Origin: Crateriforma spongiae
Lineage (GTDB): Bacteria; Planctomycetota; Planctomycetia; Pirellulales; Pirellulaceae
Assembly: GCF_012290005.1 (NCBI RefSeq)
Contig: NZ_JAAXMS010000005.1
Location: 248,001-312,000, forward strand
Length of the DNA: 64,000 bases
Reading direction: 5' to 3'
Numbering within the stretch: position 1 is the stretch's first letter; the number at the start of each line of letters is the position of its first letter. The position numbers were made by a program, and so were the translations under genes. Of this stretch, positions 6,366-40,365 are shown piece by piece. The notes below the pieces were generated by a model that saw nothing but the letters and a program-made list of their open reading frames with translations, was not told where the DNA came from and ran no database searches.

Positions 6366-6817
6366 TTCTCTTCATTCCAAGTTTGGTTGCTTCGATGACC
6401 AAGATCATCGCGGCCATCACTCTTTACACAATCGCAACTGGCGTGCCACAGCCGCCGCGTTGCGAAAACCTGCCGCCGATGCTTCCAGGCCGACGCAAAA
6501 GAACCCGTCAGTTGTTGGATGATCGTCCAACGCGGTGCCACGTCGATCATTGGGGCGAACGTCGAAGGGGTTCCCCATCAAGCCGCTGACAACAACCCGC
6601 TGACAAGTGGCGATTGCTATCGACACGAATCACGACGAACGGTCCGCCGTTCGCCGTCATCTGGTGACCACAGCGGTCGACTGATATGAAAGCCAATGGC
6701 AGATCCGCTTATACGGCGGAAACCTTCAACGGATGATCCGATCAAGGGTGGTTCGACGCGTCCAAATCAAACGTCGCATAACCATCGAAACCTTTGCAAA
6801 GCGAAGACGAAGCGTCG
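6366..6817. other. Intergenic region with one imperfect hairpin
   Basis: About 450 bp between the 55-aa gene and the AI-2E permease. No credible coding frame was found. An inverted repeat at 6632-6657 (ACGACGAACGG and CCGTTCGCCGT, one mismatch, 4-nt loop) lacks a T tract, so it is not an obvious terminator. The region probably carries divergent promoters. Confidence 0.4.
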
Positions 6818-28997: not shown

Positions 28998-31013
28998 TTA
29001 AACAGGCGTGGCGCACACAGCAGCGGTGATGGAGGAATCAAAATGGTCGCGACGAACCACATCGACGTCTTCGCACCAAACAGCAACGCTGTGGTTGGGG
29101 AACACATCGGTTCGCAGATACCGAAGGACGTCGTCACCAGTTTCCGGAGTCACAACCACTTCGATGCGGACCTGTGATTCTGACGGCCGGTCCCCACATC
29201 GCAGCCGATGGCGTCCGGCTCCGCTGCAAGGTGTTGACGTGTAACCGGTGGCACCCAATTCGACGAAACGATCGACCAGTCGCGACTCCAGATCATGGTC
29301 GGCGACCACGGTCACCCTTCGCATTGTGGAAAGGCCACCTTTACGTGCCGATTGCGGGCTGGCTGCTAGCGGCTTCATCTGCGACAAACCACGGATATGG
29401 AATTGCAGGCCTTCCTGTTGGAAATCGCGTTCCATCTCTTCGAGCTTTTCCATCACGCTGTGGTCGACCAGCTTGGTGTCGGACACGTCAATGATCAGAT
29501 TTCGTTTTTGAATCAGCCCGATCTGTTCGATTTGGCGACGGAACGGAATCCAGTTACTGAAGACGGCGGACTCTTTGGCCACGATCAGGCTGGTGTTGTC
29601 ATCGATTTCCTGGACCTCAATGAACGGCTTGAACAGACTTTTCAGTGGAACGCCATTGGCAACGTGGATGATCAGTTTCAACAGGATTCCAGCAGCGACG
29701 CCGATCAGCAAATCGGTCGCCAAGACGACGATCAGCGTGGTGACAAAGATCGCGAGCTGTTCTTTTCCGATTCGCCAGACGTGCACAAACTCGGCCGGAT
29801 GTGCCAGTCGGTATCCGGTGTAAACCAGCATGCCCGCAAGGGCTGCGAGAGGAATCTCGTGCAGCACCATGGGGATCATTGCGACACAGGCGAGCAGAAA
29901 GATCCCATGCCACATATCGGCAAATCGCGTGCGAGCACCGTTGTCGATGTTCGCTTTGGACCGCACGATTTCGGAGATCATCGGAAGTCCGCCGACCATC
30001 GACGCACACAAGTTTCCGATCCCAACGGCGACAAGGTCACGGTTCATGTTGGTTTTGCGTTTCCAAGGATCCAACAAGTCGATCGCTTTGGCGCTGAGCA
30101 GCGATTCCAGGCTGCCGATGATGAAAAACATCATCACCCATTTCCACGCTTTACCCTGTGCAAGTGCCGTGAAGTCGGGTGTGGTCACGTCGTCAAACAT
30201 GCCAAAGACGCGTTCGGGCATCTTGACCAGGTATTGTTCACCCAACTGGTACTGATGTCCTTGCAGCGTATAAGAGTGCTCGTGCAGTAGGTCGAACATC
30301 AGTCCCATGGGAACGGTGACCAACAGAACGATCATTGGCGAGGGAATCTTCTTTAGCAGCCCGACCTTTTGGCCTGCCAATGGCCATAAGAACATGATCA
30401 GAATGCTGGTCATCCCGATGGCAGCGATCGCCGGGTTGGCTTCGGCAATGTAGTGCGGAATCTCGCGTAGCATTTCCAGGGGTTCACCGCCGGCGGAGAC
30501 ACCCAACGCCACGGGGAACTGTTTGATGATGATGATGACGCCGATCGCCGCCAACATCCCGTGCACCGCAGAAATGGGGAAAAATTCGCCCAAGATTCCG
30601 CCACGGAACAGTCCGAACAGGATTTGGATGACGGCGGCGGCCACGCCGACGGCAAGGGCGGCTTGATAGGCGGTGAAGTCAGCGTCGGTCCATCCCCCGG
30701 TCATCCCATCGCCACCGAAATCTTCGATACAGCCGATCGCAATCACGATCAAACCAGCCGCGGGACCTTTGATGGTCAGTTCACTATTGCTGATAAAGGT
30801 CGTCAGAATGGAACCGATGATGGCGGTGAAGATCCCGGCGATGGGCGGATAGCCACAAGCCAGCGAGATACCTAAGCACAGCGGCAACGCGATCAGAAAG
30901 ACCAACAAGCCGGACAGAAAATCGTGCTTGAAGTACTGCACAAACCCTGACGCGTTTCCGCGAGGCGTTTCGTTTTGTTTTGTGATGGCGGCGGGGACTG
31001 CGTTATCACTCAT
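28998..31013 (-). CDS. SulP-family bicarbonate/anion transporter with STAS and PII-like domains
   Basis: A 671-aa inner-membrane protein with three parts. Residues about 28-460 are a SulP (SLC26-type) anion transporter with the [15 protein letters not shown] and [17 protein letters not shown] segments; the BicA members of this family take up bicarbonate. Residues about 470-552 are a STAS domain ([19 protein letters not shown]). Residues about 564-655 ([35 protein letters not shown], and a final EDVDVVR strand) match the trimeric PII/SbtB fold, which in cyanobacteria senses cyclic AMP and adenine nucleotides to regulate bicarbonate uptake. It starts at an ATGA overlap with the preceding antiporter-like gene, so it is translationally coupled to the DAB operon. 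Bicarbonate as substrate is inference from context. Confidence 0.85.
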
Positions 31014-32542
31014 TTTCGGTCTCCGATTGGATCCTGCGCCGTGGACACAGCGATCGCTTGAATCTGAGGCTTTTCGGTGGATGACGTGGGGAGAGAGACG
31101 GGCGGGGCGATCAACGCGTGAGATGTGCCTGGACCGTCGGTGGTGTGAAAGTCGGAATCGGGGCTGGAGGCGGCCTTGCGGTGACGGATCAGTTCAATTG
31201 CAGCGTGATAGCGTGATGCGACGCTCCACTGGGGATACAGTCCGCCAAAGATGATCAAGGTCGACAGCATCAAAACGGCAATCTTTTCGGATCGGCGGGC
31301 ACGCAGTGAGAACGTGGCCAGATGACGATGGCCAGTGAAGATGCGGAAATAGGCTTGTAAGATTGCAATGCCGTTCAGTGCCGCTGCGACCACCACCGCC
31401 ATTCCGATCCACGGATACACATCGACCGCGCTTTCGACCAACAGTTCGATCCCGATGAATCCGATGGTGCCCGGGAATCCGATCGAAGCCAGCCCCGTCA
31501 AAAGAAACAGTGCCGCAAGGGTGGGCATGTGTTCGTACAGACCATGGAATTCCAACATAGAGATGCGGCCCACTCGGGCTTCGACGCTTCGCAAGGTCAA
31601 TCCGAAACCGCCCAGGGACAGTCCGACGGAAATCCAGACGCACAACGCACCGGTCAAACCGATGGGTGTGGCCAGTTCCAGGCCGATCAAGACCAACGAA
31701 GATTGGCTTAGCAATAGGTAACAAAAGAATCGTCGGGCTTCATGCTGGACCAGCGCCATGCATCCGGCATAGACGGCGGTGATCAAAGACACGACCGCGA
31801 TACTTTGCAAGGCCCAGTCCGGTGCGATCGGTAGAACCAACCGCATCACCGCGTACGCGCCGGTCATGGGAGCGACAAACAGTAGTGCGGTGCCAAAGGT
31901 CGCCTTTTCAAACAGATCGGTCATCCAGCAATGCAGCGGAACGATGCCGGTTCGCAGCAACGCGGCAACCGTCAGAAGAGCGCCGCCAACAAACACCGCG
32001 CCGAATTCGACCAGCACTTGGCCGACCACCAACAGGGCCGCGAATACGGTCATGTGAATGGTGAACACTCGCGTGCAACGTTGACGACTTCGCAATTCCA
32101 TCCAAACGGGAATCGTCGCAGCCAACAACAACCCGATGATGACCCAGGCGTTTCGGCAACTGAGCGTTGCGATCAAAACGGCTTCGGAGACTAACATCGC
32201 GTTGAAGGAAAAGCGGTTGGCTTTGGTACGCAATGTTGATAACGCGGTCAACAAACACAACAGTGCTGCCAGCGGCAACAACGGCGCGTTCAGTTCATCG
32301 ATGACAAAGACATCGTGATGAAAGATCCAGCCGATGACATCCCAGTGGTCGTGGGCTTCGAAGGTTTGCAACCGTGAAAAATCGATCCATTCCCCGGTGG
32401 CACACGCCAACGTCAGGCCGCATGCAACCAAACTGACGATCCGGGCGGTCGCGGAGTTTTCCAGTCGTGTGACAACCACCGATGCGATGATCGGAATCAA
32501 GATGGAAAGCTCCATCCATGGCAAATGCAATTCCTGCATCAA
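31010..32542 (-). CDS. Second antiporter-like membrane subunit of the DAB operon (NuoM/MrpD-like)
   Basis: A 510-aa membrane protein of the proton-conducting NuoL/M/N and Mrp family, with about thirteen helices. [20 protein letters not shown] and [17 protein letters not shown] mark helices 7 and 12. The key Lys of helix 7 is Arg (R197), and the helix-8 Lys position in [17 protein letters not shown] reads Arg-Arg (R270, R271). The helix-5 Glu of the core is not obvious; E149 in VWMELRSR is a possible substitute. This differs from DabB next to it, which keeps all residues. It overlaps both neighbours by 4 bp (ATGA). It likely forms part of one membrane complex, either as a second ion channel or a structural subunit. 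Confidence 0.82.
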
Positions 32543-33930
32543 ACGAATTCCTCCAACGATTCGACGTGCGGACGGACGTCATCGGATTCACGTGATTGAC
32601 CGCCGGATAGAAGATTGGTCCAGCGTCTTTCCATGTTGTCACACCATCGAAACAGGCGGGTGAAAGGACGCACGATGTAGTCATCCAACAATGCGTCCAG
32701 GAAACCGCGTTCAATCGCGGTGGAATACAACCGTGCTCGGAATCGCGTTGGCAGCCAACGTGCCCAAATCGTTCCGTTGCGTTGAAGGTGACCACCGATG
32801 GCGTTTTCCAGCGTGTGGTAGTCGTGCAGCAGTGTGGGGGCACGCAGCAATTGCAGCGTCCGCAGGCAGGCATGTCCGATAATGTGGATCAATGCCAGGT
32901 AACGCAGCCCACAACCAATTTCGACCACGATGATCCCGACCTGGGTCAGCGAGGCGAACGCTAGGGCGCTCTTGATATCGGTCTGCACGCGTGCGGTCAG
33001 GGTGCCAAAGACGGCGGAGATCAGGCCCACCGAAATAACAGCGGCACGCAAAAGTGGGGACGCATCTAATAGCGGGCCGACGCGAAGCAAAAGGTACGCA
33101 CCCAAGTGCACCGACAATGCGCCGTAAAAGATCGCACTGGACGGTGTGGGGCCTTCCATCGCCCGAGGAAGCCAGCCGGAAAACGGTACCAAAGCGGATT
33201 TGCCCATCGCCGCCAGCAATAACAATGCACCGACGAATAACGCATGCGACTGCGTGATCGCAACGTGGCCTTCGGGCCAAACGCCCGTCCCCATCAGGGC
33301 GTCGAAATCGCCGGCCCCGGTCAAGTGGTGCAGCGTCAAGGCGGCGATCAAGAATGCCGCGTCAGAAACGCGATAAATGCTCCAAACGCGTTGGCCATTT
33401 CGAACCGGGTTGGTGCGTTCGTGAAAATACGCCACCAGCAACGCCGATGACAGGCCCACCAGTTCCCATCCAAAAAACAGTGTTTCAATCGTGCCGGCCA
33501 GCGATGACACAATCATGCCCAACAGAAAGACGCTGAACAGGACAAAGAATCGGTTGTAACCCGGTTCACGGTGCAGATACCGGCTGGCAAATGCACTGAC
33601 CGTTCCGCAAAGAACGAAGGACAGAATTGTGAAGGGTACCGAAAGCCGATCGAAAACGAATTTCAAATGAAAGTGGAAGTGTTGTTGGGGAATGACGACC
33701 CAATTGCCCAATTCAATGGGGACAAATCGCCGATCGGTCACCAACATCAATCCTAAGATCGCAATAATCGCGACCAATCCAACGACGACCGAAGTTTCGG
33801 TCAAGCGTGCGGAGGTTCGCTCGCTAATCTTTTGATCCAGCAGTGACGTCACCGCCAAGACCGCCAACAGCACCGCGGGGCTGATCACCACGACCAGGCC
33901 GAGCGCGAAATAGCATTGATCCAACGTCAT
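32539..33930 (-). CDS. dabB: DabB: ion-channel subunit of DAB inorganic-carbon pump
   Basis: A 463-aa membrane protein of the NuoL/antiporter family. The ATG at 33928-33930 overlaps the dabA stop codon as ATGA and replaces a longer open frame. The residues expected for ion conduction are present: E156 in [15 protein letters not shown]244 in [20 protein letters not shown] and K320 in [16 protein letters not shown]. In characterised DAB systems DabB uses proton or sodium motive force to drive CO2 hydration by DabA on the cytoplasmic side, trapping bicarbonate. It is shorter than NuoL, as is usual for DabB. The adjacent second antiporter-like gene suggests a larger complex than in two-gene DAB operons. 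Confidence 0.88.
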
Positions 33931-36900
33931 GCCGGGTCTCCTTGTTGCGGGGTGTTGGCCGACAGGATGGATGCGAATCCCAAGTGTTCGCGATGTCCGG
34001 CGTACCAATCCGGCGACGAATTGACCGCCGGAATTTCTCGTTCATGCGGCGCGTACATCAGAAAATCATCCTTGACCCAGCGATGGACGCGTCCGGATTC
34101 CGGATCGAAGACCGCCAGTTGCACCCATCCGCCTTTGACCAGTCGGGCAATTGCATCGTTGTCGTCGATGATGCGTTTCATCGCCTGCGGCGTGGATTCG
34201 ATCACGAACAACAACCGGACCGGTTCATGGATTTCAACCATCTGCCAAGGCAAGCCCGGACGCAGGTCGCTTTCGGCACCGTCCATCACACCCAGCAGGG
34301 ATGTGATGTTGTGCGGAAGCTTGGTCCCGCATCCGTATCCGATGGGATCGACATAGGAAAAGTAGTATTCCAAGTTGATCCCGGCACACACCGGAATGAC
34401 CGCTTGCAGCATCTGTTCCAGAATGGAACTGCGATCGTCGTCTTGCGTCGGGTCATAGGATGTCAGGAACGCGCGGCGATCCAAAAACAATCCGCGACTC
34501 CATTCACGTCGGCCGACGAAACACAGGGCATTGGTGGCATGGCCGTATTCCGGCCGTGTTTGGGAGAGGTCTTCAGCCCGTCCTTCGACGTGTCGCAGGG
34601 CTTCGTCAAAGTCGACCGAATCACCGGCCGATTCGAAACGCCGGCATCGTTCGTGGGCACTGCGTTTTCGCGCTTCGTCGATATCCGCCTTGGCCGCCTC
34701 GAATCGCTGACGGTGCCGCAAAGGCACGCGGTCCAAGTCATACCAAGACATCGTGTCATCACACGTGTTGTGGTATCCACCGAGGAAGAAGGTCGAGTCA
34801 GGAATCGTCAATCCGCGATCGGCCAATTGCGATCGGACGCGTGGATCGTTGGCCATTTGGGCGAACGCGCGGGCGTTGGGGCCGCCACGACCGCCGCCGC
34901 ATGCGCCGCAATCATGTGCGGCTTCGTGTGGGTTGTTCAGGCTGGCCGATCCGTGGCCACAGATGACCACTAACTCGGACAACAAGTCAGGGTTGGCAAG
35001 CCCGAGGGCTCTCAGGCCACCTTCGACGATGTTGCACATTTCATCGACGCAATATCCGATATTCCCGTTGTCCGATCCGGGGTCTGGTTTCAGTCTTTCC
35101 AAGCATAACTCGGTCGATTGCGTGCGAACGATGGACCCGAACCACCGCCGGATTTGGGCCGTGGTTCTGGGGAACATGATCCGAGCGACCAACGGGACGG
35201 CTGCGATGGATCCGAAGATGCCCGTTAATGCGCCGCCCAGGAAGGAACGTGATCCCAAATGCGCTTGATGGGTGGCGTGGCCCAAGGTGCGACGTGCACC
35301 GGCGCGACGACGTTCGCCTTCGACCGCCGAATAGACCGGTGTTTCGACGACAAAGTGATCGGGTTTGACGTTCACCGGGCACAGCGGCGTGTAGTGCGCG
35401 TCCGCTGCACCGCGGTAGTACATGGCAACACCAAAGAAGCCAGCGATTCCGAAGGTTTCGCAATCTGGTTGAATCTCTTCCAGGTGACGCCGAAATGATT
35501 CTTCGCGTTCGTCCAGGCAACAAACAATTTGAAAAGCCGGGCGCTGTTGGGGCCGGCGTTTGGGCCGCCGACCGTGGGCGATCACAGCATCCAGTGTTTC
35601 ATTGCGATACTTGCGTTCAAAGGCGCGATGATAGATCCGACGTCGCTCCAATGCAGGAAAGGACTCGATTTCTCTCAGCAACGCACTCCACTGCTGTGGT
35701 GCCAGGTTTTCAAGATTGCGGGGACGCCAACCCAAGATTTGGGCCAGTTGAAAGACGGTGTAGGCACGCTGTTCGAAATGGTTGTTCGGTCCGATCGTAT
35801 CGTGACGTTGAAAGGTCTGGCGCAGTTTGTGTAGCGGGACCTGCTGATCAGAAAATTCGTTGACAACCTGTTCAAGTGCGATGCGATCGAGCATCAAACG
35901 GACGGCCAGAAATTCCACCAGGCTGCCGGATGGTGCGGGATGCGGGGCCCATTCCGCGTTGGTTTCCATCTGCCAAATCATGCCCGTCCAACCACGCAAC
36001 GCCAACTGGGTTTGTGTGATGAATCGTTCCTGTTCGCTCTCATCGACCCCAAGCAACTGCAAGGATTCGCGGATCGATTGCAGGGGCGTCACTTGGTGAT
36101 CGGACAGCCGCTGACATTCATTTCGAACCGATCGCAGCCAACGCGTCGGTGCAGGTCCGTCGATGTGCCGGGCCAAGAACGAGCGGTAAAATCCTTGGTT
36201 GCGATACGGCAGATTCCATGCAGCAAAGCCTTGGTCCAAGAATGCGGCGCAGAATCGAATCAACGTTTCGTGGACCGGAACATCGGCATCGCCGGCACCG
36301 GCTTGCAACAGAATGTCGCGGTGTCGCAGCGGTGGGTCACTTGGCCCGGGGCTCGCGTCCGTTGTTACCGCGGAGGGACCGGCGATGCGAACGCCTTCGC
36401 AGCAGACACGCCAAAGGTAGTTCAGAACGAATGCTTCCCAGCGCCGGTCGCTCCACGATTGTCCCTTGGCAGACTTGAACTGCTTCAAAACCTCGTCCAT
36501 GGTGTCGCCGATGGGCGATGGTTGTTGCCGGCGACGCTGGACGGCCGCGCGAGTGTCGGCCAACATTTCTTGACGGACCGTGGCGGGCACTTCATCACGA
36601 AAGCATCGTAGTGCATCAGTTTCCGCGACGACCCATCGCAATTCATGGGTGGACCCGGTGCGCAGCGAAAATTTCATCATCGACAAACGCAACGCATATC
36701 GGGTGCAGAATACCGAAACCAATCGGTCCGCTTCGTCTTCCAGGTCTTCGTGCAAGACCGCTTCAAGGTCTTCGACGCGGATCCGTCCTTCTTCCAACAT
36801 CTTTCGATATCGGTCTTCGGGCAGATACGCGTGGCATCCAAAGGTGCGACCGCCGGCTTGGACACCGCTGTCGAAATCGACGTCCTCAAAGGCGTGCAGC

Positions 36901-37049
36901 GTATTATGGTGAACGAAGACCGTGATCGGGCCTTGCGATGGCAGCAAATGGGCGGCGTGTTCGATCTGGTGACGTAGTGATGTCAACGGATCATGCGATG
37001 GTGTGGAACGACCAATCGCGGCGTCCATTTCCAAAGCGGGCATGTTCAT
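33927..37049 (-). CDS. dabA: DabA: zinc-containing CO2-hydrating subunit (DUF2309/UPF0753)
   Basis: A 1040-aa cytoplasmic protein of the DUF2309 family, the beta-carbonic-anhydrase-like partner of DabB. The predicted zinc ligands match known DabA: a Cys and Asp in [16 protein letters not shown] (C511, D513 from this start), a His in [13 protein letters not shown] (H699) and a Cys in [12 protein letters not shown] (C714). The His-to-Cys spacing of 15 equals that in characterised DabA. The N-terminal motif [15 protein letters not shown] is also typical. The start is uncertain: the frame is open to 37178 with no clear Shine-Dalgarno, and I use 37049. It leads a four-gene operon and diverges from a histidine kinase gene across a 580-bp region. 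Confidence 0.9.
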
Positions 37050-37290
37050 TGGCAACGACAGACATCTAAAGGAATGGCGATCCATACCGGCGACCCTACG
37101 ACGTCGCGGACCGATGGCCCCGCCCAAACGCAACCGTCGTGCCATCGGCGGATCACGCCGCAGATTGAACGGCGGCAATGTGCGATGGACTTCCCTGGTT
37201 CACCGGGAAAATGCATCTGCAAGGTCATCGAAGATGGTTGCGAACAGCGCAATGAAGCTGGCTAGCACGGCTGACTACAACACCGGGGCT

Positions 37291-37327
37291 GTGCAAGACT
37301 TTGCAGGTCGTCTGCACCGGCTTGCAC
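37291..37327. promoter_or_regulatory. Concentric palindrome with four helically phased TGCA boxes
   Basis: GTGCAAG at 37291-37297 pairs with CTTGCAC at 37321-37327, and TGCAG at 37302-37306 pairs with CTGCA at 37312-37316; all arms share the centre at 37309. The four TGCA cores begin at 37292, 37302, 37313 and 37323, a spacing of 10, 11 and 10 bp, so they face the same side of the helix. This is the expected form of a binding site for two dimers of a TGCA-recognising regulator such as an NtrC-type protein. Confidence 0.5.
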
Positions 37328-37533: not shown

Positions 37534-37633
37534 GGACAGCGACGCTGTGATGGCCATCGATTGAATGTTTCCCCGTTACTGCGCCGCGGACGTTGAGACC
37601 CAATGGGCCGCGGTAACGATACAAATCCACCCG

Positions 37634-39001
37634 ATGTTTCGCGCACGATCCGAAGAGAACGAGAAAACGTACCGGCTGGCCGTGATTGGTCTGCTGCTGG
37701 GCAGTGCCGCTGCGCTGGCGATCACCATTTGGGTGATGGTGGACTTTCTGCGTGAACAGCAAATTGTCGAAGACTTGATCGGCCAATTGCCACGCGACGG
37801 CCGCGAATCGGCGCAAGTTTTGGCCGGGGAACTACGCTGGCAATTTCGATTGACCATCTTGGTCGTGTTGAACCTTGTCGTGACCGGGATCGCCGTGGTG
37901 TTGCTGTCACGGGCGTATCGTTCGTCGCTGCGAAGTCTGCGTGACCTTAAAGCGCTGGCCGGCGACATTCTAAGCAGCATTGATCAGGCGGTGATCACGA
38001 CGGACCGTGACGGCCGAGTCACCAGTATGAATCGTCGTGGATTGGAATTGCTGGACCCTCCCAGTGAACCGGTCGGACGGTCCTTGCATGACTTGGCGCC
38101 ATGGGTACCGTTGGACGAGTTTCGACAAGGACAAAAGGACCGAGAAGGCGGCAAACAGTCGGACGATTTTGAAACGATGATCCGTGATAGCGATTTGGTG
38201 CTTCAGGGGTTCTGTCAAACATTGTGCGATATCGATGATCAAGAAATCGGTTATGTGATCCAGTTGCGCGACGTGACCGATCGCATCATGATCGAGGAAC
38301 GGGTGCGACGAATGGAAAGATACATGGGGTTGGGCTCACTGGCCGCTGGCTTGCATCACGAGATCAAAAATCCATTGGCGGCGTTATCGTTGCATGTCCA
38401 ACTGTTGGAAGAACAATTGGATGGGAAAGACGAAACGGATGATGTGCGGCAAATGCTGCGTGTAATCCGCAGCGAAGTGGTTCGCATCGGTGGTGTGTTG
38501 GAAGTATTTCGCGATTTCGCATCCATCGACCGGTTGAATCTACAACCGGTGAATCTGGACCACTTGATCCACCGCCAAGTCGACTTGATTCGTCCGACGG
38601 CCAAAAAACAAAGTGTGGCCGTGCAGGTGCGATGTCCACGGGACGTTTTGCCCGAAGTGATGGCGGACCCGGTCCGTTTGGAACAAGTGCTGCTGAACTT
38701 GTTGGTGAACGCGTTGGAAGCAATGGCCGGTGGTGGCAGTCTTTGTGTCGAAGCCGAAGTGATCGAAGAGACGGTCAAAATCAGTGTGGTCGACTCGGGA
38801 TCGGGCATTCCTGCCGAACTAAGCGACAAGATTTTCGATGCGTACTTCACAACCAAGGGCTCGGGCAACGGTTTGGGCTTGGCGTTTTGCGACAAGATCA
38901 TTCGACAGCATGAAGGCAGCCTGCATTTCCATTCCGGCACAGGGGGAACCACCTTTGAAATCACATTGCCGATCGGTTCTGAATTCGAAACCAGTGAGTG
39001 A
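37634..39001 (+). CDS. NtrB-like membrane sensor histidine kinase
   Basis: A 455-aa kinase starting at the ATG at 37634, with an alternative ATG at 37565. Two membrane helices (YRLAVIGLLLGSAAALAITI, and LTILVVLNLVVTGIAVVLL) enclose a short periplasmic segment of about 40 residues. A PAS domain follows (DILSSIDQAVITTDRDGRV), then the H-box LHHEIKNPLAALSLH with the phospho-acceptor His (H242), N-box LLNLLVNALEAM, G1 DSGSGIP, F-box FDAYFTTK and G2 GNGLGLA. It would phosphorylate the downstream response regulator, whose start is 5 bp after this stop. It diverges from dabA, so control of inorganic-carbon uptake is a reasonable hypothesis. Confidence 0.88.
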   Translation: MFRARSEENEKTYRLAVIGLLLGSAAALAITIWVMVDFLREQQIVEDLIGQLPRDGRESAQVLAGELRWQFRLTILVVLNLVVTGIAVVLLSRAYRSSLRSLRDLKALAGDILSSIDQAVITTDRDGRVTSMNRRGLELLDPPSEPVGRSLHDLAPWVPLDEFRQGQKDREGGKQSDDFETMIRDSDLVLQGFCQTLCDIDDQEIGYVIQLRDVTDRIMIEERVRRMERYMGLGSLAAGLHHEIKNPLAALSLHVQLLEEQLDGKDETDDVRQMLRVIRSEVVRIGGVLEVFRDFASIDRLNLQPVNLDHLIHRQVDLIRPTAKKQSVAVQVRCPRDVLPEVMADPVRLEQVLLNLLVNALEAMAGGGSLCVEAEVIEETVKISVVDSGSGIPAELSDKIFDAYFTTKGSGNGLGLAFCDKIIRQHEGSLHFHSGTGGTTFEITLPIGSEFETSE

Positions 39002-39006
39002 GCGTC

Positions 39007-40365
39007 ATGGACGAGGAGTTTCAGGTATTGATTGTCGACGACGAACCGAACATCCGATCGGGCTTGGCGCGAGGATTGGAAAAGGAAGCCACCCATATCG
39101 AAACCGCGGGGACGGTCAACGAGGCGCTGGATAAGTTCGATGCCGGCGATTTCCAACTGGTCATTGCCGATATCCGACTGCCGGGCGATCGTGACGGGCT
39201 GGAACTGATCTCGTTGGTCCAGCAACGAAAGCCTGGCACGACGGCCATCGTGATCACCGCCCATGGAACGGTGGAAACTGCGGTCGATGCGATGCGGCGT
39301 GGGGCATTCGATTTCATTACCAAGCCGGTCGATCTGAACCTGATCCGCCAACAGATCGCCAAGGCACGCGAACACCACCGGTTGCAATCCGAGAACCGGG
39401 AATTGCGCGACCGATTGGCCGAGGCGGGTGAGGTGTCGGGGATCGTAGGAAACTGTCGAGCTCTGCAAGACGTGCTGACACAGATTCGGCAGGTGGCCGA
39501 CACCGATGCAACCGTCTTGATTCGTGGTGAAAGCGGCACCGGTAAGGAGTTGATCGCTCGGGCCGTTCACGATCTTAGCAACCGGGCCGGCGGACGATTC
39601 ATTGCCGTCAACTTGGGGGCTTTGCCAGAGACATTATTGGAAAGCGAATTGTTCGGGCATGAACAGGGATCCTTCACAGGCGCGTCGCGTCAGAAACCCG
39701 GGTGTTTCGAACAGGCCAACGGTGGCACGTTGTTCCTAGATGAAATCACCGAGATCCCGTCGAAAAGCCAAGTCGATTTGTTGCGTGTTCTGGAAACCGG
39801 ACACTTTGTACGCGTCGGTGGCGAAGAAGTGTTGGAATCGGATGCTCGGATCCTTTCAGCAACCAATCGTGATATTCAACAGATGGTCGATGATGGCGAA
39901 TTTCGTGAAGACTTGTTTTATCGTCTGAACATTGTTCCGATCGAAGTCCCGCCGCTACGTCAGCGTCGTGAGGACATTCCCTTGTTGGTCGACCACTTCC
40001 TGGAACACTTTTGCATCCGCCATCATCGTCCCGCCAAAACGATTCACGATGCGGCAATGACGCAACTGGTCGGATCCAGTTGGCCGGGCAATGTTCGGCA
40101 GCTGCGTAATGTGATCGAACGATTGGTTGTGACCGTCGGCGATGACACGATCGAAACTCGTCATCTGCCGTCGGATCTGCAAGGATCGTCGACATCGGGA
40201 CCATCCCAAGAGGCCACGTTGGCCGAAGTGACCGAGGCGGCTGAGAAATCGGCGATCCAATCCGCGCTTTCGGCAAATGATTTTCATCGCGAAAGAACGG
40301 CAAAGTCGCTTGGGGTCAGCGTGCGAACGCTTCACTACAAGATGAACCGCTACGGGCTGCACTGA
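39007..40365 (+). CDS. NtrC-family sigma-54-dependent response regulator
   Basis: A 452-aa activator in three domains. The receiver domain (1-120) has the acidic pair D11/D12, the phospho-acceptor D55 in IADIRLPG and K106 in ITKP. The AAA+ domain (about 140-375) has Walker A GESGTGKE (174-181), the sigma-54-contacting GSFTGA loop (221-226) and Walker B FLDE (243-246). The C-terminal Fis-type helix-turn-helix ends RTAKSLGVSVRTLHYKMNRYG. The loop is intact, so it should activate sigma-54 RNA polymerase. It is co-transcribed with the kinase. The candidate binding site at 37291-37327 lies in the shared upstream region. Confidence 0.92.
   Translation: MDEEFQVLIVDDEPNIRSGLARGLEKEATHIETAGTVNEALDKFDAGDFQLVIADIRLPGDRDGLELISLVQQRKPGTTAIVITAHGTVETAVDAMRRGAFDFITKPVDLNLIRQQIAKAREHHRLQSENRELRDRLAEAGEVSGIVGNCRALQDVLTQIRQVADTDATVLIRGESGTGKELIARAVHDLSNRAGGRFIAVNLGALPETLLESELFGHEQGSFTGASRQKPGCFEQANGGTLFLDEITEIPSKSQVDLLRVLETGHFVRVGGEEVLESDARILSATNRDIQQMVDDGEFREDLFYRLNIVPIEVPPLRQRREDIPLLVDHFLEHFCIRHHRPAKTIHDAAMTQLVGSSWPGNVRQLRNVIERLVVTVGDDTIETRHLPSDLQGSSTSGPSQEATLAEVTEAAEKSAIQSALSANDFHRERTAKSLGVSVRTLHYKMNRYGLH

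Follow-up and report, generated by a model that had tools for sequence, protein, structure and literature searches.

We analyzed a 64,000-nt stretch of the Crateriforma spongiae genome (RefSeq GCF_012290005.1, contig NZ_JAAXMS010000005.1, positions 248,001 to 312,000 of the forward strand; hereafter, the window), whose source contig is labelled C5 of the 6.87-Mb genome G000. The window contains an operon of the DAB family of inorganic-carbon systems, with four confirmed open reading frames (ORFs), dabA, dabB, dabM and sulP-PII, following each other in series on the minus strand. The name DabM was coined in this analysis for the third, NuoM-like protein.

33927..37049, minus strand: DabA, predicted cytoplasmic zinc subunit similar to beta-carbonic anhydrases (beta-CAs), 1040 aa (PF10070, 794 bits; alignment to 9rd0_A; AlphaFold model).
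32539..33930, minus strand: short DabB, 463 aa, with a NuoL-like part and an amphipathic tail (PF00361, 140 bits).
31010..32542, minus strand: DabM, the third subunit, NuoM-like with 14 helices, 510 aa (PF00361, 87 bits; AlphaFold, Foldseek).
28998..31013, minus strand: SulP anion transporter with a C-terminal PII-like domain, 671 aa (PF00916, 195 bits; PF00543, 46.6 bits; PDB matches).

The ORFs and their Pfam matches bear out the gene set listed in the initial annotation of the window (DabA, DabB, a NuoM-like protein and SulP), and strong family matches together with orthologues for all four rule out chance or frameshifted frames. That annotation had joined all four genes by ATGA overlaps; these are present at 33927/33930 and 31010/31013, while the middle junction is TTGA if dabM starts from the TTG at 32542, and TGATG if it starts from the ATG at 32539. 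A longer DabA with a TTG start at 37178 was rejected because this start would fall upstream of the sigma-54 promoter box described below.

DabA and DabB are members of their respective families: the PF10070 score of DabA compares with a cut-off of 25 bits, with no NCBIfam match above cut-off, and DabB, encoded next to dabA, is a NuoL-like membrane subunit (PF00361/PF00662) matching DabB2 with 94 bits. Alignment of DabA to DabA2 (9rd0_A) identifies the zinc-site residues C511-x-D513-x-R515 and H699-x14-C714, in agreement with the C-x-D and H-x14-C ligands named initially. These five residues are common to all 62 aligned DabAs and are kept in 110–111 of the 111 rows of a wider set (the two sets share five contigs, L042/L168, L058/L094, L059/L115, L061/L128 and L062/L100). 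The finger hairpin, spanning approximately residues 573–625, differs: Gly613 occupies the column of DabA2 Glu444, which is Glu in 11 of 13 DAB2-side rows and in none of the 49 other rows of the 62-row alignment. In the wider set Glu is found in 0/111 rows, seven of them gaps, and the finger stretch lacks any acid in 105 of 112 DabAs, the source DabA counted. Replacement of Glu444 by Ala or Gln is reported to abolish the in vivo activity of DabA2 (PMC13144422). The AlphaFold model of DabA (mean predicted local distance difference test, pLDDT, 81.5; predicted template modelling score, pTM, 0.85) retains the hairpin as helices 573–601 and 603–625, its tip at 601–620 being predicted with low confidence (block means 47 and 57).

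DabB is 463 aa long compared with 551 aa in DabB2; its best NuoL family match stops at residue 374, the PDB matches end by residue 405, and the final hydropathy peak, at 322–338, is followed by the amphipathic tail. Hence a counterpart of transmembrane helices (TM) 12–15 of DabB2 and NuoL, which a DAB2-type DabB possesses, appears to be absent. The protein retains Glu156, Lys244, Lys320, His349 and His353, and the intact Glu and Lys residues of the initial annotation are recovered by alignment as the first three. At the places of H260, S316 and K347 of DabB2, reported to be needed for DAB2 (PMC13144422), it has Tyr269, Ala326 and Arg357, respectively. The same replacements prevail throughout the DabA-DabB-DabM (A-B-M) rows with letters at these places (Tyr269 in 105/105, Ala326 in 98/104, Arg357 in 103/103), while all eleven DAB2-type DabBs have His, Ser and Lys there. 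Moreover, a NuoL-like Glu at the place of DabB2 Ile151 is present in 109/109 A-B-M rows with letters and absent from 11/11 DAB2-type rows. Judged by the finger Glu, by the H260/S316/K347 places and by TM12–15, all of which depart from DAB2 as far as the protein sequences tell, the operon is not of the DAB2 type. Its initial label as DAB holds at the level of the family, the operon comprising SulP and an extra antiporter-like subunit besides, and is inexact in the DAB2 sense, the residues needed there being changed; the missing finger Glu and the shortened DabB had been overlooked, as had the absence of the NuoM TM5 Glu and TM8 Lys from DabM.

That DabM is a NuoM/NdhD-like protein of 14 helices follows from both profile search and fold (AlphaFold pLDDT 90.6, pTM 0.88), the top 20 Foldseek matches being complex I chains (NuoM, ND4, NdhD) and one Mrp chain, with TM-scores of 0.74–0.79. 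Among solved structures the DabM profile best matches 6tjv_D of the cyanobacterial NDH-1MS complex, with 169 bits, the next scores being 149 and 142; this chain is taken as NdhD3, described as one of the antiporter-like subunits (PMC6981117). By structure, however, 6tjv_D ranks only fifth among near-equals, so that its kinship with DabM is a lead only. The possibility that DabB and DabM are halves of a split 665-aa DabB was rejected because the DabM model holds all 14 helices. By alignment, DabM has Arg197 at the place of the TM7 Lys and Glu366 in TM12, one residue beyond the corresponding acid when aligned pairwise with NuoM, and has neither the TM5 Glu nor the TM8 Lys of NuoM. This pattern is general: the TM7 place is Arg in 93 of 97 rows and the TM12 acid is present in 90 of 91 rows with letters, while the TM5 stretch lacks an acid in 92/98 rows and the TM8 stretch lacks Lys and His in 82/95. 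The N-terminal half of DabM thus appears degenerate, with the acid of the C-terminal half retained.

Conservation of the trio was assessed in two sets of loci, one from a survey of the phylum, which detected DabA in 61 of 392 Planctomycetota genomes, and a second one consisting of the best 80 of at least 566 relatives of an A-B-M DabA, selected by likeness. Counting only loci whose downstream flank reaches 2.9 kb or more, which drops three and 23 shorter loci, respectively, DabM is encoded beside DabA and DabB in 28/28 loci of the phylum set and 57/57 loci of the second set (85/85 with room), and the trio is present in Planctomycetota, Acidobacteriota, Myxococcota (Sorangium, Myxococcus) and Verrucomicrobiota. 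We conclude that the DAB family includes a genuine and conserved variant with three subunits, DabA-DabB-DabM. The four-gene order, which the initial annotation would have doubted had the genes been rarely adjacent in relatives, therefore stands for the trio, SulP adjacency not being universal. In the literature searched, most subscription papers being outside it, we found no description of a third DAB subunit or of DAB regulation in Planctomycetota, which is no proof of novelty. Some A-B-M genes lie on contigs of metagenome-assembled genomes (MAGs) labelled Kuenenia stuttgartiensis or Akkermansia muciniphila (L105, L146, L149, L143), and these labels look doubtful. In family f46, the loci L065, L068 and L069 each contain two distinct dabA-dabB pairs, arranged back to back on opposite strands.

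Other lineages encode long DabBs (625–883 aa), with no separate DabM in the fetched flanks, some of which are short. The C-terminal profile of DabM matches the C-terminus of 20/20 long DabBs (15–76 bits) and of 0/9 DAB2-type DabBs, and in L079 TM7–TM14 of DabM follow the DabB part in a single protein. In the DabA tree, the two kinds of DabA are split with a support of 100 in the Shimodaira–Hasegawa-like approximate likelihood ratio test (SH-aLRT). A further kind of DAB is seen in L084, L085:3891-6437 and L086:3921-6572, where DabA has the finger Glu and, in L085 and L086, DabB is DabM-like at its end. In Sorangium cellulosum So0157-2 (L110:11014-14331), a single 1105-aa frame encodes both DabB and DabM, joined via an RRA repeat in what looks like a recent event; this frame was dropped as a basis for a joint DabB-DabM fold, given the repeat linker and the placement of DabM rows on the DabB half by MAFFT.

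SulP combines the PF00916 core with the P-II domain and thus belongs to the PII-containing SulPs, its STAS match of 15.6 bits lying under the curated cut-off of 22.6. Compared with the BicA equivalog it scores 107 bits, far under the cut-off of 880, so that the score itself assigns no substrate; we consider it a probable bicarbonate importer. Among planctomycete loci with room on both sides, SulP is present in 12/25 loci of the phylum set and 15/24 of the second set, mostly behind DabM and mostly with a PII-like tail. In other phyla it is found in 2/2 Acidobacteriota, 5/5 Myxococcota and 5/6 Verrucomicrobiota loci (12/13 altogether), mostly before DabA and without PII; some of the SulPs counted in relatives are distant, at about 250 bits. 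This variation of gene order between phyla argues for a working link with the DAB operon. As adjacency is common and not universal, SulP looks like a frequent yet optional accessory. CO2 hydration and SulP import, regarded by the initial annotation as a single unit, are therefore best described as a conserved trio with an optional SulP. In Thiomicrospira pelophila, a SulP encoded beside carboxysome genes is reported to rescue CA-less Escherichia coli, and another SulP, not to (PMC12628692). In a Sorangium MAG (L125:1660-6477) SulP and DabA occupy one 1605-aa frame, which may reflect natural fusion or misassembly.

Upstream of dabA lie a promoter box, a palindrome pair and a divergently transcribed regulatory gene pair.

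37129..37144, minus strand: sigma-54 promoter box TGGCACG-N4-TTGCG, starting 95 nt before the dabA ATG (0 of 200 shuffles).
37292..37326, minus strand: tandem palindrome, candidate enhancer, two TGCA-N6-TGCA units 21 nt apart.
37565..39001, plus strand: PAS histidine kinase, predicted sensor of the operon, divergent from dabA (PF02518, PF00512, PF08448).
38998..40365, plus strand: NtrC-type sigma-54 response regulator, predicted activator of dabA (PF00158, PF00072, PF02954).

All parts of a sigma-54 two-component regulon are present, namely, the kinase, the NtrC-type regulator, RpoN (the genome has rpoN), the –24/–12 box and the palindrome pair. The translated regulator contains GSFTGA, presumably the loop motif of sigma-54 regulators. 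The dabA box is the best in 31 upstream regions picked in the window, scoring 14.6 compared with 12.8 for the next; the sole other sigma-54-like box of equal score in the window is at 6433–6448 on the minus strand. Homologues of the kinase and the regulator (more than 300 bits) are encoded beside dabA in 12 and 11 of 111 loci, respectively, L167 having the kinase only, and in five of these 12 loci a beta-CA gene lies between dabA and the kinase-regulator homologues. A sigma-54 box (at most one in 200 shuffles) is found in 10/12 kinase loci compared with 3/20 loci picked without the pair.

The palindrome was first hinted at by an inverted-repeat scan. Its initial form, GTGCAAG/CTTGCAC pairs, matched 3/13 kinase loci (here and below in this comparison, the window is counted), and the best form is TGCAA-N4-TTGCA. 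With at most one mismatch the unit is present in 12/13 kinase loci, in eight of them with a second unit 20–21 nt off, and at least one unit is seen in 6/20 picked loci without the kinase; mononucleotide shuffles gave a match in 0 to 11 of 300. The two-unit form occurs once in the 6.87-Mb genome even at one mismatch, its backwards control giving zero. Exact pairs were identified in 13 of 21 A-B-M genomes, at dabA in eight, the source genome counted, and only elsewhere in five, all from genus g10. Among 297 genomes of the class, 37 have the pair, at 48 sites (47 from the class survey plus that of the window), with zero control sites among the matches listed. By eye, 18 of these sites were assigned to dabA, which they precede, three to sbtA (one of the three was tested; PF05982, 334 bits) and 18 to kinase-regulator genes without dabA, the remaining nine having no such neighbour. 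Half of the latter 18 sites carry a porin gene like that of L193, with PF07396 matched in 4/4 tested; in genus g10 a Porin_O_P gene lies at the palindrome and the kinase-regulator genes (L193:7772-9310, L194:6416-7954, L195:5999-7519, L196:6053-7579) and may provide an outer-membrane route for bicarbonate. Hence, this rare pair travels with its own regulator and marks several inorganic-carbon genes, which is the strongest independent support for the role of the operon in inorganic-carbon supply, although some relatives do not have the regulator at dabA.

The metabolic setting seems to be heterotrophic, as was suggested initially. The source genome has no match to RubisCO (PF00016), other CO2-fixing pathways not having been searched, and a RubisCO-based autotroph was rejected on this ground; RubisCO is present in two of the 21 A-B-M genomes. 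Phosphoenolpyruvate carboxylase (PF00311) was not found in the source genome, and of its two biotin-carboxylase frames one, 1168 aa, is pyruvate-carboxylase-like by length only. The proposed anaplerotic use of bicarbonate is thus plausible, with biotin-dependent carboxylation its likely user. Beta-CA (PF00484) is present in all 21 A-B-M genomes; in 11 of them its gene is found upstream of dabA in divergent orientation, and in four, two of which also belong to those 11, it follows the operon. Small beta-CA-like proteins, some with altered zinc motifs, are encoded directly behind A-B-M(-SulP) in L040:13732-14367, L045:15201-15803 and L041:1838-2437. The source genome has two beta-CAs, both on contig C2, one of which (G000:C2:624640-625083) is a domain within a 746-aa ORF, perhaps a transporter-CA fusion. 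A second pair, dabB-dabA, of the DAB2 type with the finger Glu, is located approximately 210 kb from the operon (L003:3372-7813 on C5) and scores 482 bits to DabA2 and 251 bits to DabB2.

Based on these observations, we suggest, with a probability of about 0.6, that the operon encodes a three-subunit CO2-hydrating complex coupled to the proton-motive force (PMF), which feeds carboxylases and is controlled by an inorganic-carbon two-component system. DabA would hydrate CO2 at a buried beta-CA-like zinc site while resting on a membrane part formed by the short DabB, with the cytoplasmic half-channel (TM4–11), and DabM. The C-terminal half of DabM, with its TM12 acid, would substitute for the DabA finger Glu and DabB TM12–15, the periplasmic half-channel of DAB2. 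Protons entering down the PMF via DabM and DabB would make hydration one-way, with delivery of bicarbonate; more bicarbonate would be imported by SulP-PII, gated by its PII-like domain. The divergent kinase, sensing carbon status, and the sigma-54 regulator would turn the operon on via the tandem enhancer, and the bicarbonate would go to carboxylases and not to RubisCO.

Several observations weigh against this reading. Searched against the PDB (Foldseek library to April 2026, 9rd0 not among the entries), the DabA model matched nothing under an E-value of 0.001, a beta-CA being third at 0.64. The A-B-M function is, for every family member, a prediction from homology. L085 and L086 have both the finger Glu and a DabM-like DabB C-terminus, therefore DabM is no simple replacement for the finger Glu, while L080 and L083 lack this Glu and show no DabM, so that natural systems do not strictly depend on this residue. 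The tree program warns that the branch separating the two kinds of DabA joins long branches. The regulatory link is partial: some relatives lack the switch at dabA, the pair lying there in only 8/21 A-B-M genomes, only elsewhere in five and not found in eight. Finally, the source genome already has the two beta-CAs and the DAB2-type locus, and here dabA has no adjoining beta-CA gene of the kind that lies upstream of it in relatives.

Of the alternatives, the best surviving one, itself rather unlikely, is that DabM works separately, as an antiporter-like helper for ions or protons that tunes the PMF or ion balance beside an ordinary two-subunit DabA-DabB. It has in its favor the full 14-helix antiporter-like architecture of DabM, the transport of cations by antiporter subunits elsewhere, and the argument that MpsAB uses sodium (PMC13144422). 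However, the loss of the TM5 acid (92/98) and of the TM8 Lys/His (82/95) makes transport by DabM on its own doubtful; moreover, DabB alone shows no TM12–15, DabM is present in all 85 loci with room, and fused forms exist.

Slightly less likely, the complex could be a bicarbonate/cation symporter or an ion pump, in which DabA acts as a gate that binds bicarbonate instead of hydrating CO2. The alteration of the residues needed in DAB2 would fit such a function, as would the description of MpsAB as a bicarbonate transporter (PMC8552792), but the five zinc-site residues are retained almost without exception. We regard as improbable an operon serving chiefly pH or membrane-potential homeostasis, with inorganic carbon secondary. 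Its membrane parts are indeed antiporter-like and the genome already encodes beta-CAs and a second DAB, but SulP, the beta-CA neighbours and the occurrence of the enhancer at sbtA in three genomes point to inorganic carbon. Very improbable is that DabM, some of whose channel residues are lost, is a degenerate bystander retained through operon structure only, since it is kept across four phyla with the TM12 acid nearly invariant.

A broader reading has about even odds, namely, that DabA-DabB-DabM forms a second widespread class of PMF-driven CA with a NuoM-like coupling half-channel, a redox-free analogue of the NDH-1MS end, and that Planctomycetota have a sigma-54 inorganic-carbon system driving dabABM or sbtA via an enhancer with 21-nt spacing. 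Since this natural DAB class, found in four phyla, lacks the finger Glu and the rearranged helices and carries a complete antiporter-like subunit in their place, it allows a direct test of which components one-way hydration of CO2 requires. As a concrete and rare DNA signature, the palindrome pair may make it possible to recognize the inorganic-carbon regulon of these bacteria by its sequence, and it directs the search for a signal to a particular sensor kinase. Moreover, such an operon in a genome without detected RubisCO bears on why heterotrophs pay for bicarbonate.

Compared with DAB2 of Halothiobacillus neapolitanus (9rd0, PMC13144422), the operon has the same PF10070 DabA with the five zinc-site residues, a likewise NuoL-like DabB, and shared counterparts of K235, K310, H339 and H343. 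It differs in lacking the finger Glu444, in the shorter DabB with no TM12–15 seen, in the H260Y, S316A and K347R replacements, in the NuoL-like Glu at the I151 place and in the third subunit DabM; the 2026 structure of DAB2 is reported to ascribe coupling to one DabA glutamate and rearranged DabB helices. With NDH-1MS (NdhD3, NdhF3, CupA; 6TJV; PMC6981117), the operon shares NuoL-like and NuoM-like subunits and a cytoplasmic zinc protein for CO2 hydration, so that A-B-M resembles that end of the cyanobacterial CO2 pump which bears its two antiporter-like subunits. However, DabA is beta-CA-like by homology to DabA2 and CupA is not, and no CupA-type zinc protein or redox subunit is found in the operon, the rest of the genome not having been searched; the energy of DAB would be the PMF and not electron transfer. 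DAB-type systems in heterotrophs have already been published (PMC6689103; PMC13144422), such as MpsAB of Staphylococcus aureus, a DabA-DabB homologue that provides this heterotroph with inorganic carbon (PMC6689103, PMC8552792); unlike A-B-M, it consists of two subunits, mpsC being reported as no functional part (PMC8552792). Finally, the system recalls the bicarbonate transporters BicA/SulP and SbtA, having SulP-PII within the operon and, in three relatives, sbtA at the same enhancer.

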